From the NCBI RefSeq assembly GCF_001889605.1, contig NZ_CP018171.1, positions 2,750,501 to 2,814,500 of the forward strand: a stretch of 64,000 bases of DNA, given 5' to 3'. Positions within the stretch are counted from its first letter, which is position 1; the number at the start of each line of letters is the position of its first letter. The notes under the pieces are model-generated. The model saw only the letters and a list, made by a program, of their open reading frames with translations, did no database searches and was not told the origin of the DNA. This document shows positions 54,096 through 61,499 of this stretch, in pieces. This DNA comes from Aquibium oceanicum. Its GTDB lineage: Bacteria > Pseudomonadota > Alphaproteobacteria > Rhizobiales > Rhizobiaceae. The position numbers were made by a program, and so were the translations under genes.

Positions 54096-54232
54096 CTGAG
54101 CCATCGATCTTCTTGACGAACAATTGCTATCGCGCCCCGGCGCGTTCGGTTCTCCTTCTCGATTTCGATGCCCGACCGGGCCCGGCACGCGGCCGGCCGG
54201 CGGATCAAACGCCGATTTGAAAGGAAATCGAC

Positions 54233-54442
54233 ATGGAAACCGGAACGGTAAAGTTCTTCAACGCCACCAAGGGCTTCGGCTTCATCCAGCCCGACGCCGG
54301 CGGCCAGGACGTATTCGTTCACGCCTCCGCCGTTGAGCGCGCGGGCATGAACACCATCGTGGAAGGCCAGAAGCTCTCCTACGAGGTGGTCAAGAGCAAT
54401 CGCGACGGCAGGAGCTCGGCCGAAAACCTGCAGGCGGCATAA
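54233..54442 (+). CDS. cspA: Cold-shock protein
   Basis: A 69-residue single cold-shock domain. It begins [38 protein letters not shown], with RNA-binding motifs RNP1 (KGFGFI, residues 14-19) and RNP2 (VFVHAS, about 28-33). It binds single-stranded RNA and acts as an RNA chaperone in the cytoplasm. AAAGGAAA precedes the ATG. It is followed at once by a hairpin-terminator module. Confidence 0.96.
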
Positions 54443-54449
54443 GTTTCAG

Positions 54450-54531
54450 GCGCCTCCGGTCCGACCACGGATGTACTGGCGCGACCGTGGAGGCGCTGAA
54501 GAGAAGGTCGGGGAAACCCCCGGCCTTTTTT
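54450..54531 (+). ncRNA. Hairpin-terminator RNA module, copy 1 (3' UTR of cspA or small RNA)
   Basis: An outer stem GCGCCT/AGGCGC (54450-54455 with 54491-54496), an inner stem CCACGG/CCGTGG (54465-54470 with 54485-54490) around a 14-base loop, then an intrinsic terminator GGTCGGGG/CCCCCGGCC with six T (54506-54531). The same arrangement and much of the sequence recur at 54912-54998. It may be the cspA 3' UTR or an independent small RNA. Confidence 0.6.
54506..54531 (+). terminator. Intrinsic terminator after cspA
   Basis: GGTCGGGG pairs with CCCCCGGCC around AAA, followed by TTTTTT at 54526-54531. It ends cspA transcription before the next small gene, whose ATG is 19 bases further. Confidence 0.88.
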
Positions 54532-54549
54532 CATCAGAGGAGCACATCG

Positions 54550-55163: not shown

Positions 55164-56204
55164 ATGAACGAGACTGTCAGGAATTTTCATGAGGCCGCGG
55201 CCCCGGCGTCCCCGGCGCCCGATGCACCGCTCGCCATTTTCGCGCGCGGGCTCGTCCGTCATTTCGGCGCGGTGAAGGCGGTCGACGGCGTCGACCTCGA
55301 CGTGCCGCGCGGCATGATCTTCGCCGTGCTGGGTCCCAACGGTGCTGGCAAGACGACCTTGATCCGCATGCTGGCGACGCTGCTGACGCCCGACGCGGGC
55401 CAGGCAACCGTGATGGGCCACGATCTGCTCACCGAGCCGCAGTCCGTGCGCGCGTCGATCGCGCTCACCGGCCAGTTCGCCTCGCTGGACGAGGACCTGA
55501 CCGGGCGCGAGAACCTCATCCTGCTGGCGCGGCTCTGGGGGTTCCGTCACCGCGCCGCGCGGGAGCGGGCGGACGAACTGCTTTCCGCCTTCGATCTGAC
55601 GGGGGCCGCGCGGCGCCAGGTGAAGGATTTCTCCGGCGGCATGCGCCGGCGGCTCGACATCGCAGCCTCGCTGGTGGTGACGCCCGGCGTGCTCTTCCTC
55701 GACGAGCCGACGACCGGGCTCGACCCGAAGGCGCGCCAGGGCGTGTGGCGCATGATCCGCGACCTGGCGGCCGGCGGCGTCACCATCCTGCTCACCACGC
55801 AGTATCTCGAGGAGGCGGACCAGCTTGCCGCACGCATCGCCGTCATCGACCACGGCCGCAAGATCGCCGAAGGCACGAGCCGCGAGCTGAAGGCCGCGAC
55901 CGGCTCCGGCTACCTGCACGTGACGCCGGCCGACCCGTCGCGCCTCGACGAGGCGGCCGAACATCTGGCCGCCCGGCTCGGCGGCACGGTGAAGCGCAAC
56001 GCCGAAGGCGCGCGCCTTTCGGTCATGACCGCATCGGCGAGGCAGGCCAACGAAGCGATCGCGGCGCTCATCGCGTCGGGCATCGAGATCGCCGACTTCT
56101 CGATGGGCGCGCCGAGCCTGGACGAGGTGTTCTTCGCTCTCACCGGCGCGCCGGCCGACGAGGCCGCCGGCGACGACGCAGGACCCGTGGAGGTGACGCC
56201 ATGA
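55164..56204 (+). CDS. DrrA-type ABC exporter ATP-binding protein
   Basis: A 346-residue ATPase. Residues about 25-250 are the nucleotide-binding domain: Walker A GPNGAGKTT, Q-loop TGQFASLDEDLTGREN, signature FSGGMRRRLDIAASL, Walker [18 protein letters not shown]. The C-terminal extension (about 255-335) with SRLDEAAEHLA and DFSMGAPSLDEVFFALTG matches the daunorubicin-resistance type (DUF4162-like). Substrate unknown; relatives export drugs, lipids or polyketides. It overlaps the permease gene by 4 bases. Confidence 0.92.
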   Translation: MNETVRNFHEAAAPASPAPDAPLAIFARGLVRHFGAVKAVDGVDLDVPRGMIFAVLGPNGAGKTTLIRMLATLLTPDAGQATVMGHDLLTEPQSVRASIALTGQFASLDEDLTGRENLILLARLWGFRHRAARERADELLSAFDLTGAARRQVKDFSGGMRRRLDIAASLVVTPGVLFLDEPTTGLDPKARQGVWRMIRDLAAGGVTILLTTQYLEEADQLAARIAVIDHGRKIAEGTSRELKAATGSGYLHVTPADPSRLDEAAEHLAARLGGTVKRNAEGARLSVMTASARQANEAIAALIASGIEIADFSMGAPSLDEVFFALTGAPADEAAGDDAGPVEVTP

Positions 56205-57004
56205 CCGCGCGGTCGCCCTCGATGTTGTCCACCGTGGCGCCGCCGCGGCCGGCCGGCGCGTTCTCCAACGCGCTCACCTTCGGCTGGCGCGCGGTGCTGA
56301 AATTCCGCCATCTGCCCGAGCAGCTCTTCGACCTGATCATGACGCCGCTCATGTTCACGCTGCTCTTCACCTTCGTGTTCGGCGGCGCGCTGGCCGGTTC
56401 GCCGGGCGATTATTTGCAGTTCTTCCTGCCGGGCATCCTGGTGCAGACGGTGATGTTCAACTCGGTCTATTCCGGCGTCGGGCTCTCGACCGACCTGACA
56501 AAAGGCCTGTTCGAGCGCTTCCGCTCGCTGCCGATCTGGCAGCTCTCGCCCTTTGCCGGATTGATGGTGGGAGACGTCCTGCGCCACCTGATCGCGGGCA
56601 TGATCATCCTCGGCGTCGGCCTGGCGCTAGGCTACCGGCCGCAGGCGGGTGTTGCCGGCGTCGTCGCTTCCTTCCTGCTGCTTTTCGCCATCGGCTTCGG
56701 CACGGGCTGGATCTTCATCGTGCTGGGACTGATCATCCGCACGCCGATGACGGTGATGACGGTCGGCTTCACCTTCATGTTCCCGATGGTCTTTGCCTCC
56801 AACATCATGGTGCAGCCCGAGACGATGCCGGCCTGGCTCGAGGCTTTCGTGGTACGAAACCCCGTCTCGCACATGACGACCGCGCTGCGCGGCCTGATGG
56901 CCGGCACCGCGAGCGGCAGCGAGGTGCTTCTGGCCTTGGCCGCGCCGGTGTTGCTCACGCTGCTGCTGGCGCCGGTGACGCTCTGGCTCTACCGGCGGAA
57001 TTGA
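56201..57004 (+). CDS. DrrB-type ABC-2 exporter permease
   Basis: A 267-residue protein with six membrane helices. Marks include a DLIMTPLMFTLLFTFVFGGAL start of the ABC-2 domain, FLPGILVQTVMFNSVYSGVGLSTDLTKGLFERFRSLPIW, and NPVSHMTTALRGLMAG near the end. It pairs with the upstream ATPase (ATGA overlap). No resistance or biosynthesis gene cluster adjoins to show a substrate. Confidence 0.92.
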   Translation: MTARSPSMLSTVAPPRPAGAFSNALTFGWRAVLKFRHLPEQLFDLIMTPLMFTLLFTFVFGGALAGSPGDYLQFFLPGILVQTVMFNSVYSGVGLSTDLTKGLFERFRSLPIWQLSPFAGLMVGDVLRHLIAGMIILGVGLALGYRPQAGVAGVVASFLLLFAIGFGTGWIFIVLGLIIRTPMTVMTVGFTFMFPMVFASNIMVQPETMPAWLEAFVVRNPVSHMTTALRGLMAGTASGSEVLLALAAPVLLTLLLAPVTLWLYRRN

Positions 57005-57086
57005 TTTTTCGACACGGTCGGGATGGGGGGAGGTCGGAGCCTGCGCCAGCATGGCACCGTCCGCCGCCGACGAAATGGAGACTGCG

Positions 57087-57545
57087 ATGCAAAAACTGCC
57101 TCTTCCGCTCTCGGGCTCGTGCCGCTGCGGCCGGGTCGAAATGCGCGTGTCGAAACCGCCGATCGCCACCAGCGCCTGCCACTGCCGCGGCTGCCAGAAG
57201 ATGTCGGCCAGCGCCTATTCGCTGACGGCCATGATCCCGGCCGACGGCTTCGAGGTGACCAAGGGAGAGCCCGTCATCGGCGGCCTGCACGGGCCCCAGA
57301 GCCACCACTTCTTCTGCGACCACTGCATGACCTGGATGTTCACGCGCGCCGAAGGCATGGACTGGTTCGTGAACGTGCGGCCGACCATGCTGGACGACAC
57401 CGCCTGGTTCCGGCCCTTCATGGAGACCTTTACCAGCACGAAGCTGCCATTCGCGGAGACGGGCGCGGAGAGGAGCTTCGAGGAGTTCCCTGCGATGGAG
57501 GAGTTTGAGGGGCTGCTGGAGGAGTATCGGGCGTGGGTGAGATAG
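57087..57545 (+). CDS. GFA (glutathione-dependent formaldehyde-activating-like) family protein
   Basis: A 152-residue zinc-binding protein. Cysteine motifs are CRCGRVEM near residue 13, CHCRGCQKM near 31 and FFCDHCMTW near 73, which bind zinc in the GFA/CENP-V fold. The name reflects one founding member; most have no proven activity. ATG 57087 has GGAG six bases upstream (57077-57080); earlier ATGs at 57051 and 57075 are possible. It is the last GC-rich gene before the AT-rich islet. Confidence 0.88.
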   Translation: MQKLPLPLSGSCRCGRVEMRVSKPPIATSACHCRGCQKMSASAYSLTAMIPADGFEVTKGEPVIGGLHGPQSHHFFCDHCMTWMFTRAEGMDWFVNVRPTMLDDTAWFRPFMETFTSTKLPFAETGAERSFEEFPAMEEFEGLLEEYRAWVR

Positions 57546-57628
57546 CGCGCAATTTCTCTGGTCCCAAAACGGAAGTGGGAGTTTCATCCAACTCCTGCGG
57601 ACAAAGCCCACAGACAGGCAAAAACTCT

Positions 57629-59596
57629 CTAAATAATATCTCCCATTAAAACCTCAAAGAACGCGCTATTTCTCTTCTTGGCATCGGAGACTAGTTTTTC
57701 GTACCCCAACACCTCGACAAAAGCATCGCGTCGTTCATGGTAACGAAAGAACCCTTGATGATCCCAGGAAACGTTGAAATCATGATCATCAATTACCGTT
57801 CTCAATGTTGGCTCTATATCCGCGACCAAATAACTAAAGATTCGAGTACCTTCCGGAACTTGTATGCGCGACCCGCTTGCAGAGATCAAACTTCCATCCG
57901 TCCGAATTTTCGCAATAGTCTCGTAGATTTGCTGAATCGGATCCTTCTTCGAATCACCAAAAAAATAGTCATTTCGCCCGGGTCGTTTGAATTCCACGAG
58001 GACAATGGAGTTGGCATCGCTGTTTCGATATACAGCGCACTCCTCGAACATTATCAAGTCCGCAACTTTATCTCCCGCCTGTCGCCGCCCTCCATGAATA
58101 GTTCTGTCGCTGGAGATGTACGTTACAAATGCAAGTCTTTCATCAATCATCCACAAATTATGCTGATAAAACTTTATGTTTTCACTATCTTTATGTCGAG
58201 GATACACAATATCATGGAATACATCTTCAAGACTTGTTCGACCATCCTCGCGCACTCCAATTACCTTCTCCGCCAAGTCTATGACGGTGCGACGATGAGC
58301 TACGTACGCCGCAAGAGCTTCCTTGTTCTCTTGCTCGATGTGAGAAAGTATCTCCTCTCTAGCCGCTTTCAGAGACTCAAAATCTCTTGTTTTCTCTTCT
58401 AGCTCCTTCTCCCATCTGCCCTGATCTCGATACCTCCGTAGGGCAAGGTCCGAAACAAATTGCTCTGCTCCCCAACTCATGGGCTTCGAACGGACGTAGT
58501 CAGCGGGGGCTCCCTTCAAGGCGGTCCTCAACAAAGGGTTCCTCACGAAGACGGAGACAAGGCTTTTTGCTTGATCGGTACGACGAGCCTCTCGATACTC
58601 GTTCTGTTGATCGAGTACGAGTTCAGCGACACGATTTGCAATTGCGTCAATCTCATCTTCATTTGCTTCTACGTCCGTCCGTGCCGTGTTCGCGCGATTA
58701 TTCAGAAATTCTCCACTAACACTTGCGATTACGACGCGGCTTTTGCCGTCTCTCCCAAGAAACGAGGGAGTTCCGATCTTACCTTCCAGGCTTCTGCCGC
58801 TACCAATTATTCGGCCGTCCGCAAACAAAAGCATCGCATGCCTCGGGAATAGGTTTCCTTTCTCGGAGAGTGAAGTTCCTATTTCAAAGTCGTGCAGTTC
58901 GCCATCTATCTCGATCGTCTCATTCAACGTCACTTCGGAGCTAAATAGATTTTTGAATCGGTCGGCAGCGTCGTAAATTGTTCCATCTATACTAAGAGAT
59001 ATCTGGGGCATTCTGCCGGAAACAAAATAAGGAAGAAAATAGCGAATGATTCGATCTACAATTTGATCGGGATTGATATTTTCCACGACATTCACAAAAT
59101 CAGGTTTTACTCCAGAATATCGGACAGAACAGCCAGTATCATCAATAAAAATTGTGTCTACGTTGGTGAACTTAATTTCCGGAGGCGCAAAAATATCGAA
59201 CGAAAATGCCCTCGTTTCGAAAGCGGTGTCCTTTTTACTCCGTGAAGCGTAGTATATTTCATTAAAAACCTTAAAGGAAATAAATCGTCCGAAACCTTTT
59301 CCGCCTTTTCGTAGTTTATGACCAGTGAAGGGGGTAAGAAAGGCATCAAAATTATCTTCGGTGAGGCCGACCCCATTGTCTTTTATCGAAGCAAATACAG
59401 GTGAAAGGCTGATTTCAATCTCGATCTTTCCTTTCGCTAATTGCTTGGTATCGAAGCGCTCGGTAATAGAGTGGTATGCATTTGAGATGCACTCGAATAC
59501 GGGTAGAAGAAAGTTGTCAACATTCGGCCTTAAATTCGTCCTCTTCACAACAGATATCATATCTGCGTGCTTCAGCGGAATATTAGTATTATCCAT
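57629..59596 (-). CDS. GHKL ATPase with C-terminal PD-(D/E)xK-like nuclease domain
   Basis: A 655-residue protein in an AT-rich islet (both flanks are GC-rich). Residues 1-200 are an Hsp90/MutL-type ATPase: N-box ECISNA (Glu35, Asn39), DNGVG (Asp73), and GGKGFGR (98-104). A middle domain follows, and a coiled coil (about 405-470) leads to a C-terminal domain with Asp513 in VADLIMFE, Glu535-Phe-Lys537 in VLVEFKRPG and a Gln555-x-x-Tyr558, the layout of PD-(D/E)xK nucleases. AAGGAGAG lies 4 bases before the ATG. MORC/MutL-like ATPase plus nuclease architectures are known among phage defence systems; the defence role is inferred. No partner gene is seen. Confidence 0.8.
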   Translation of the reverse strand: MDNTNIPLKHADMISVVKRTNLRPNVDNFLLPVFECISNAYHSITERFDTKQLAKGKIEIEISLSPVFASIKDNGVGLTEDNFDAFLTPFTGHKLRKGGKGFGRFISFKVFNEIYYASRSKKDTAFETRAFSFDIFAPPEIKFTNVDTIFIDDTGCSVRYSGVKPDFVNVVENINPDQIVDRIIRYFLPYFVSGRMPQISLSIDGTIYDAADRFKNLFSSEVTLNETIEIDGELHDFEIGTSLSEKGNLFPRHAMLLFADGRIIGSGRSLEGKIGTPSFLGRDGKSRVVIASVSGEFLNNRANTARTDVEANEDEIDAIANRVAELVLDQQNEYREARRTDQAKSLVSVFVRNPLLRTALKGAPADYVRSKPMSWGAEQFVSDLALRRYRDQGRWEKELEEKTRDFESLKAAREEILSHIEQENKEALAAYVAHRRTVIDLAEKVIGVREDGRTSLEDVFHDIVYPRHKDSENIKFYQHNLWMIDERLAFVTYISSDRTIHGGRRQAGDKVADLIMFEECAVYRNSDANSIVLVEFKRPGRNDYFFGDSKKDPIQQIYETIAKIRTDGSLISASGSRIQVPEGTRIFSYLVADIEPTLRTVIDDHDFNVSWDHQGFFRYHERRDAFVEVLGYEKLVSDAKKRNSAFFEVLMGDII

Positions 59597-59970
59597 GTGC
59601 TCTCCTTATCTGAAGATAGAATTGTTTATCTTTAATTTCTTTAAGCATATATCATCGGGAAAAAATCGTGCTGCCTACGATTTGAGGCGGGCAAATTGAA
59701 TATCCATTTATTATTCATACAAACTCAGGATGGCGACAGCGGCAATTTTCATGAGCGAACAGCATGCTCACAAGCTGGTCCGATGTTCGGTACCGGCTAT
59801 TTATAACGGTGATGGCGTTTATAGGCGAGCTAGTATTTTCTCGTATCGCTGTGCAAAAGCCGGACCTCCGCCTGCAACAATACCAACACCTTGGGCGAAT
59901 TCTGTCCCTGTTCCATCCACACCCCAACCCACCCACGCCACAATGCCCACCGGTTTCACGAGGCGCGGGC
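59597..59970. other. Intergenic stretch at the right edge of the AT-rich islet
   Basis: Composition changes from AT-rich (to about 59,720) back to GC-rich. No integrase, tRNA or obvious direct repeat is seen at either edge of the islet. In-frame sequence ahead of the next gene (59764-59970) has no protein-like features. Confidence 0.5.
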
Positions 59971-60378
59971 ATGGCTGCAACACTGGACGATCGGACGATG
60001 AGGCGCATTGTGGCGCTGCTCGTCTCGTTCGCCGTGATGGCAGAGCGGGCCGCCGGCCGGTCCTTCCCGGTGCGTTTCGTCGTGCTGTGCATCCTGCGAC
60101 ACGCCGAGGCGGTGGCGCTGTTGTTTGTGGCCGAGACGTTCGAGGCGGATGTTTTCTACGTCCATGGCGATCCCGAAACGGGGTACGGCCCGGCAGACGC
60201 GATGGCGATCGCCATGCGCCTGCGCGCGCTCGCGTCGCTCGTCTTCGCCATGCTGGACCCAGCTGACCTGGACGACGGCTGGGTGATCGTCCTTAGCCGG
60301 CGAGCCCTGCGGTCCGATGCCCGTGCGTGCCTCACCGCGCCGTTTGGCTGGATTATCCCCTGCATCGACACCTCCTGA
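59971..60378 (+). CDS. Hypothetical small membrane protein
   Basis: A 135-residue protein with two or three hydrophobic segments (about residues 11-27, 42-62 and 85-100) and a conserved-looking FEADVFYVHGDPETGYGPADAMAIAMRLRALASLVFAML. No family recognised. The ATG has only weak ribosome complementarity (GAGG). Its GC content fits the chromosome, so it is not part of the AT-rich islet beside it. Confidence 0.55.
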   Translation: MAATLDDRTMRRIVALLVSFAVMAERAAGRSFPVRFVVLCILRHAEAVALLFVAETFEADVFYVHGDPETGYGPADAMAIAMRLRALASLVFAMLDPADLDDGWVIVLSRRALRSDARACLTAPFGWIIPCIDTS

Positions 60379-60563: not shown

Positions 60564-60878
60564 ATGAAACTTGTTGCACTGACGATCGCGCTCGCCGCCG
60601 TGGCGGCGCCCGCGCAGGCGATTTCGCGCTACAATTCGCTCGACATGAGCTGCGCCCAGGTGCAGTCGGCCGTGGCGCGGGAAGGGGCGGTGATCCTGCG
60701 CTATCCGTCGAAGCGCAAGCCGAGCCTTACCCTCTACGACCGATACGTCGAGCACGGCGGCTTCTGCGCGGTCGGCGAATACGCCGCCAACGACTGGATA
60801 CCGACGGCCGACAAGGCGCAGTGCTTCGTGCGCGCCTGCAAGCCGGTCAACTACGACGACGACGTCCTGTTCAACTGA
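60564..60878 (+). CDS. Small secreted cysteine-containing protein
   Basis: A 104-residue exported protein: signal peptide (residues 1-19, VALTIALAAVAAPAQA), then SRYNSLDMSCAQVQSAVAREGAVILRYPSKRK, YDRYVEHGGFCAVGEYA and CFVRACKPVNY. Four cysteines suggest two disulphides. Similar short proteins are frequent in Rhizobiales, function unknown. GAGGAGGT precedes the ATG; an earlier ATG (60504) would put 20 Arg-rich residues before the signal peptide and is unlikely. Confidence 0.78.
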   Translation: MKLVALTIALAAVAAPAQAISRYNSLDMSCAQVQSAVAREGAVILRYPSKRKPSLTLYDRYVEHGGFCAVGEYAANDWIPTADKAQCFVRACKPVNYDDDVLFN

Positions 60879-60902
60879 GCCCGCCGATGAGCCCCGCGCG
60901 CA

Positions 60903-61499
60903 TCAGAAGCCGAAGCTCGTCTGGGCGGGCGCGTCCGGCCCGAGCCGCACACCTTCGAGCGAAAGCAGGCGCGTCTTGGTCGAAACGCCTCCGGGCGCAG
61001 AAAATCCGCCCGGCTTGCGACCGGCGGCAAGCACGCGATGGCACGGGATCACCAGCGGACACGGGTTCGAGCCCATTGCCTGGCCCGTCTCGCGCGCAGC
61101 GCCCGCATGCCCGGCGCGCTCGGCCAGTTCGCCATAGGTCGTCACCTCTCCGAAACCGATCGTCCGGGCTTCGCGGTAGATCGCCTTGCGGAAATCGCCC
61201 ACGCCGCGAAGGTGGACCGGAACGGCGCGAAGATCCACGCGCTCGCCGGCCGCATAGCGCTTCAGGCTCCCCGCCAGCTGCGCCATCGCGGGCGGCAGCA
61301 GCGCTTCCAGGATCACCTTGGCATCGGCGCGGCACTCGGCATTGTGGAACCCGTTGCGCGGCATGGTCAGCAGCCGCTCGGTCTCGGCCGCGTCCCGGCC
61401 GGGAAGCTGCAGCCGCGTCAGCCCGTGCTCGCTCCACGCGATCCCGACCGGCCCGAACCGCGTCTCGACCAGGTGATGGCCCATGGCTGCCGGTCTCAT
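60903..61499 (-). CDS. ogt: Methylated-DNA-protein cysteine methyltransferase
   Basis: A 198-residue suicide repair protein that removes methyl groups from O6-methylguanine. The active site is IPCHRVL (Cys153), preceded by TYGELAERAG and ARETGQAMGSNPCPLV (helix-turn-helix and Arg finger region). No Ada transcription-activator domain is present, so it is the Ogt type. The ATG at 61499 has GGAGG close upstream; a later ATG (61484) is also possible. Its 3' end is 24 bases from the convergent gene. Confidence 0.92.
   Translation of the reverse strand: MRPAAMGHHLVETRFGPVGIAWSEHGLTRLQLPGRDAAETERLLTMPRNGFHNAECRADAKVILEALLPPAMAQLAGSLKRYAAGERVDLRAVPVHLRGVGDFRKAIYREARTIGFGEVTTYGELAERAGHAGAARETGQAMGSNPCPLVIPCHRVLAAGRKPGGFSAPGGVSTKTRLLSLEGVRLGPDAPAQTSFGF

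Follow-up and report, generated by a model that had tools for sequence, protein, structure and literature searches.

A low-GC gene of Aquibium oceanicum encodes a VcSduA-like GHKL ATPase-nuclease, a candidate stand-alone anti-phage protein

The 64-kb stretch of Aquibium oceanicum DNA analysed here (hereafter the window) contains one AT-rich gene in which a GHKL ATPase is fused to a putative nuclease, and the question it raises is whether this gene is a defence system of its own, as an earlier note made from the sequence had proposed. The gene occupies positions 57629-59596 of the minus strand as one intact open reading frame of 655 codons, with an ATG start and no internal stops; its product is termed P0001. 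Its GC content is 0.449, against 0.661 for the window minus 57501-59800, which bears out the description of a single 655-residue gene lying well below its surroundings in GC. When gene-length segments were taken every 50 bases, the five lowest were found to start at 57701-57901 (GC 0.444-0.449), and every segment starting outside 55500-60000 had a GC of at least 0.57. To the left, an ORF at 57051-57545 (plus strand), which we take to encode a GFA-like protein, converges on the gene across a gap of 83 bases; the right-hand side begins with AT-rich DNA to which no gene is assigned, followed by sequence at the GC of the host. No repeats bracketing the AT-rich islet were found, and a scan for promoters and terminators returned about as many sites as in shuffled sequence. 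The alphaproteobacterial sRNA ar35 (Rfam RF02346, 58.1 bits) lies further off, at 54399-54533 of the window. The features of the locus are as follows.

57560-59900 (edges approximate), no strand: AT-rich islet around the gene, from the composition profile and GC ranking
57629-59596, minus strand: GHKL ATPase-nuclease fusion gene, 655 aa (VcSduA-like/paraMORC3), from the intact ORF and aligned relatives
59108-59521, minus strand: GHKL ATPase domain, about residues 26-163, from the HATPase_c match and conservation, with boundaries estimated from the model
58667-59104, minus strand: probable S5-like transducer or middle region, about residues 165-310, from the secondary structure of the model and Foldseek alignments, with invariant R262 and R306
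58259-58660, minus strand: helical linker, residues 313-446, from the AlphaFold2 model
57641-58249, minus strand: C-terminal PD-(D/E)xK nuclease domain related to SduA_C, about residues 450-652, from the model of residues 445-655, slice matches and hhalign
58058-58060, minus strand: D513, candidate catalytic aspartate, D in 81/81 rows and opposite the Shedu aspartate in hhalign
57986-57994, minus strand: E535-x-K537, candidate catalytic motif, E and K in 81/81 rows and opposite the Shedu E-x-K
57929-57931, minus strand: Q556, glutamine conserved in the helix that follows the E-x-K strand, Q in 81/81 rows and opposite the Shedu Q

We found the GHKL motifs of P0001 at E35/N39, D73-x-G75-x-G77, K94 and GGKGFGR (residues 98-104), so that E35, N39, D73, K94, R104 and the glycine-rich stretch are exactly where the earlier note had placed the ATP site. 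The Pfam HATPase_c model matches P0001 at 21.9 bits, under its cut-off of 26.4, and is matched at E<=1 by all 11 members of the set A1. For the full protein, an AlphaFold2 model computed from P0001 together with 71 genome-contig sequences (72 in all) has a mean pLDDT of 90.1 and a pTM of 0.71, and when searched with Foldseek it matched Hsp90, TRAP1 and SMCHD1, the last being a MORC relative (best E 3.2e-12). Most of these alignments run over 350-440 columns, with TM-scores by query length of about 0.31-0.37, and the matches appear to cover the N-terminal GHKL and transducer part of the model. The ATPase fold and probably the transducer fold are common to P0001 and MutL, MORC (SMCHD1) and Hsp90, whereas the C-terminal parts differ, and a likeness in function would be one of analogy. 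A sequence search of the PDB with P0001 gave nothing at E<=1 and one with the C-terminal profile gave no match, whereas the family profile gave 25 matches at E<=5, of which 24 were GHKL proteins (best E 0.0049).

The ATPase part is followed in the model by two long predicted helices, residues 377-403 and 406-446, which lead into the C-terminal domain and correspond to what had been described as a coiled coil. Conservation was then assessed over 81 aligned rows (P0001 and 80 others, two rows being identical). It can be seen that 21 of the 24 checked positions, picked mostly because they were already invariant in earlier alignments, do not vary in any row, P0001 included; the invariant residues include E35, N39, D73, G75, G77, G101, G103, R104, R262, R306, D513, E535, K537 and Q556. 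The remaining three are K94, kept in 76/81 rows, and G98 and G99, each kept in 64/81. The proposed PD-(D/E)xK-like set is in place as regards D513, E535 and K537; the glutamine of the QQIY motif (555-558) that is invariant in the family is Q556, not Q555 as first assigned.

A separate model of residues 445-655 (pLDDT 87.2, pTM 0.85) gave as its best Foldseek matches the restriction nucleases FokI (E 0.017) and McrBC (E 0.039). All of the matches are weak, and none reached E<=0.001. Solved Shedu sequences exist; among the best 50 of the 334 matches there was no Shedu chain, and the library searched may lack the solved Shedu.

The relation of this domain to the Shedu nuclease was detected to different extents by different methods. 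With single-sequence HMM searches at E<=1, P0001 matched no SduA_C or Shedu model in Pfam or NCBIfam, and an HMM of nine Shedu sequences matched 0/81 rows at E<=10. At the level of the family, SduA_C was the commonest Pfam match of the C-terminal slices, being found in 12 of 60 at E<=1 (best 2.7e-4), the slice of P0001 itself not among them. When the C-terminal profile A3 was compared with the nine-sequence Shedu profile by hhalign, the result was 92.4%, and D513, E535/K537 and Q556 faced the Shedu D, E-x-K and Q; ten controls, two reversed and eight column-shuffled, gave 0.1-1.1%, and the full-length profile A2 gave a lower value of 68.8%. The type I nuclease model HSDR_N also matched weakly in six of the 60 slices and in one A1 member at 1.4e-6, so that a restriction nuclease from a different branch is a near alternative. 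A search for SduA_C in the host's own genome gave no matches, as in 0/14 control genomes, and is uninformative. We conclude that the C-terminal nuclease appears to be related to that of Shedu, a relation missed by single-sequence HMMs, seen in part of the family and recovered by profile-profile comparison, and because of this mixture of results we call the protein VcSduA-like, within the wider Shedu group. Compared with classical Shedu (SduA; PF14082), P0001 would share the nuclease and carry a GHKL ATPase in place of the N-terminal part.

The architecture had not been recognised as that of a named system; it has, however, been described twice. In their account of paraMORC3, Iyer, Abhiman and Aravind (2008; PMC2292703) describe a GHKL domain, an S5 domain and a C-terminal domain of restriction-endonuclease fold with the residues E-D-ExK, in proteins that are sporadic and laterally mobile and whose stand-alone subset occurs mainly in proteobacteria and Bacteroidetes. 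P0001 shares this arrangement, its S5 region being assigned from the model and structural matches and its restriction-endonuclease fold from the profile comparison and weak structural matches, and the likeness is to paraMORC3 as described. Adams et al. (2025; PMC12137116) present VcSduA of Vibrio cholerae as an anti-phage protein with an N-terminal GHKL ATPase and a C-terminal PD-(D/E)xK domain, classed as Shedu type I-D, and they note that proteins of this build were formerly annotated as paraMORC3. In their experiments VcSduA protected E. coli from T1-like phages of the Drexlerviridae and V. cholerae from X29, and the substitutions E27A and K557A each abolished protection (PMC12137116). The Shedu types are those defined by Gu et al. 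(2025), as given in PMC12137116 and in a review (PMC12409362) that repeats the classification. A full-text literature search turned up no tested protein of this architecture apart from VcSduA.

A homologue from a Vibrio fluvialis plasmid served as a proxy for VcSduA, because its motif residues E27 and K556 have nearly the same numbers as the mutated residues E27 and K557 of VcSduA and because it is 28% identical to P0001 (195/691 aligned columns) over residues 19-650. E35 and K537 of P0001 align with E27 and K556 of this homologue. Like VcSduA, then, P0001 is a single protein with a GHKL domain and a PD-(D/E)xK domain, both sites being kept and their spacing being similar as judged through the proxy; it differs in being 28% identical to that proxy and in belonging to a separate alphaproteobacterial clade.

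The distribution of the gene is patchy. Matches were found in 13 of the 199 genomes sampled from the taxonomic family, the host's own included; among the 12 of 198 others, eight matched at E<1e-30 and four partially, at 5e-9 to 2e-4. Two of five genomes of the genus match, the second copy being 31% identical and placed in another deep clade, so the gene is not universally conserved in sister genomes. A scan of genome contigs gave at least 484 relatives among at least 596 candidate stretches, of which 80 were kept, ranging from Alphaproteobacteria to Bacteroidota, Bacillota, Cyanobacteriota and one archaeal bin; 71 of the 80 loci entered alignment A2, nine having been omitted by hand as fragments or near-duplicates, some of them with no reason recorded, and 59 of those 71 entered the C-terminal alignment A3. 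In a quick maximum-likelihood tree P0001 groups with proteins of Aureimonas sp. Leaf324 (53% identity) and Aquisalinus luteolus (52%), within a clade of 23 rows that are all alphaproteobacterial by record name and lie apart from the V. fluvialis branch. The tree mixes host families, and the copy from the sister species falls in another clade.

Relatives are also carried on mobile DNA: by tblastn they were found on 56 plasmid records and one phage record, and a pattern scan of viral contigs with a single sequence found no relative. The homologue of phage vB_RanS_PJN03 (L127:2485-4509; 24% identity over 98% of the query) lies beside a gene for an integrase; its annotation, N-acetylmuramoyl-L-alanine amidase, is apparently wrong. 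The gene has a lower GC than its flanks in 76 of the 78 loci with enough flanking sequence, including 21/21 among L019-L041, which fits a laterally moved gene and is by itself no proof of defence. We sought the flanks of the Aquibium gene in four other genomes of the genus, one of them 69% complete, the comparison covering 40-60 kb in two genomes and shorter pieces in three; a clean empty site could not be demonstrated there because gene order at the site differs between species. Two blocks of the window, 54221-54385 and 60579-61481, are 6 kb apart here and about 340-360 bases apart in genomes G105, G177 and G199 of the genus, where one of them is inverted, and these differences in spacing and orientation indicate that a rearrangement took place here in one of the two lineages.

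We also looked at what lies beside the relatives, using gene calls from a home-made ORF picker. Seven plasmid copies were chosen by hand to be varied. In six of them the stretch shown includes genes for restriction-modification, toxin-antitoxin, abortive infection or a CBASS-like system; beside the seventh lie an AAA ATPase gene, a helicase gene and others without assignment, and its defence neighbours are not clear. On the V. fluvialis plasmid (L017:10628-14022) and in Thalassotalea (L082:8613-12007) a classical Shedu gene stands directly upstream of the GHKL-Shedu gene, in the former with a 4-base overlap between the two and with type I restriction genes ahead of them, and two different Shedu-type nucleases are apparently encoded in one operon. 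In 4/81 loci, all four in the P0001 clade, the gene is adjoined or followed by one for a protein of some 220 aa that bears an R-N-x-I-Q-H motif and is presumably HEPN-like:

L018:12094-12756, same strand as the gene: R-N-x-I-Q-H protein
L029:11953-12648, same strand as the gene: R-N-x-I-Q-H protein
L041:11953-12654, same strand as the gene: R-N-x-I-Q-H protein
L032:11983-12636, opposite strand to the gene: R-N-x-I-Q-H protein

This protein matched nothing in Pfam at E<=0.01, and the Aquibium gene has no neighbour of its type in the window. No conserved partner was found across the family, the largest cluster among 831 neighbours within six genes at 80 loci covering at most seven loci, and the Aquibium gene has no neighbour of a clustered kind. 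We scanned 136 of the 153 listed neighbours against PADLOC (60 and 76; 17, mostly short, were omitted by hand). Ten neighbours were picked and scanned singly, giving a strong match to Drt6 (L033), a UvrD helicase matched as RTasHel/GajB (L029), a partial match to PbeA (L019), a helix-turn-helix match (L034) and, for six, none at E<=1e-10. These scans had no control set of unrelated genes, and the counts make no claim of enrichment.

The reading that we consider likely is that the gene arrived by horizontal transfer and works against phage as a stand-alone gene, being of the VcSduA kind (paraMORC3; Shedu type I-D) and encoding an ATP-operated clamp with a Shedu-like nuclease. The suggestion that it is a defence system thus gains support from the relation of its nuclease to Shedu by profile, the scattered occurrence and the relatives on plasmids and phage; by extension, P0001 would protect its own host. 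The defence-family profiles did not add to this, since no model in PADLOC-DB 2023 found P0001 (0 families at E<=1), and among the 11 A1 members three PADLOC families were matched, each by a single member (best E 0.0078). Proteins of the GHKL class dimerise through the ATPase and close as a clamp driven by ATP. By homology with VcSduA and from these GHKL mechanics, the ATPase and transducer of P0001 would make up a dimeric clamp worked by ATP, like those of MutL, Hsp90 or MORC, joined by the helical linker to the Shedu-like PD-(D/E)xK nuclease. Binding of ATP and closure of the dimer round invading DNA would position the two nuclease domains so that they become active, and the activated nuclease would nick or cut phage DNA early and spare the cell, as in direct restriction; P0001 would accordingly be expected to dimerise, to cut under the control of ATP and to recognise a target. 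On our best reading, by analogy, P0001 would be a further member of a kind already known, a VcSduA-like, ATP-gated DNA clamp controlling a Shedu-like nuclease.

A variant of this reading is that the 23-row alphaproteobacterial clade is a functionally distinct GHKL-Shedu branch responding to a different property of invading DNA, for example topology and not free ends, sometimes with a HEPN-like partner; we regard this as doubtful.

Nuclease effectors often act by abortive infection, and an activated P0001 might instead degrade the DNA of its host and kill or arrest the infected cell. One plasmid relative does adjoin an annotated abortive-infection gene, and the gene that we take to be HEPN-like follows in the 4/81 loci listed above. 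We nevertheless think this mode of action unlikely, as VcSduA protected with similar robustness at every multiplicity tried, and its authors interpreted these culture kinetics as direct restriction of the phage in a host that stays alive (PMC12137116).

A further alternative is that the protein assists a restriction-modification system, encoded at another place in the genome, in looping or cutting DNA; Iyer et al. allow that some stand-alone copies may aid an unlinked restriction system (PMC2292703). Relatives do lie in or beside type I cassettes, on plasmids of V. fluvialis and Rhodococcus, three of the 76 scanned neighbours match specificity-subunit models (given without their loci), and neighbours of L054, L082, L095 and L098 form one cluster. 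The host itself has two unlinked sites where specificity-subunit and methylase matches lie together, C1:4122626-4124724 and C1:751244-753345, the specificity-subunit match being weaker at the latter. These sites are, however, about 1.3 and 2.1 Mb from the gene, and among the neighbours on the P0001 side the 25 of 172 PADLOC families shown include a type II methyltransferase and no type I subunit. Moreover, VcSduA works as a single gene in E. coli (PMC12137116), which makes a helper role less likely, and we consider such a role for P0001 quite improbable. A DNA-repair (MutL-like) or housekeeping function, suggested by the GHKL-nuclease linkage shared with MutL and considered by Iyer et al. for copies outside restriction contexts (PMC2292703), can practically be set aside, given that few genomes of the family carry the gene, that it is not conserved in the genus, that its GC is below that of its flanks and that its relatives occur on plasmids and phage.

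For this probable anti-phage gene of the VcSduA kind, the points of interest to specialists are the alphaproteobacterial clade, the missing PADLOC model and the linked gene that we have called HEPN-like. The locus also bears on a question dating from 2008 (Iyer et al.), namely whether paraMORC3 proteins of the stand-alone subset work by themselves or together with a restriction system encoded at another locus: the host carries unlinked candidate type I genes, so the roles of the gene and of restriction should be separable by deletion. If P0001 is a defence protein, the VcSduA type would reach into a deep branch of Alphaproteobacteria that goes unflagged by PADLOC 2023.
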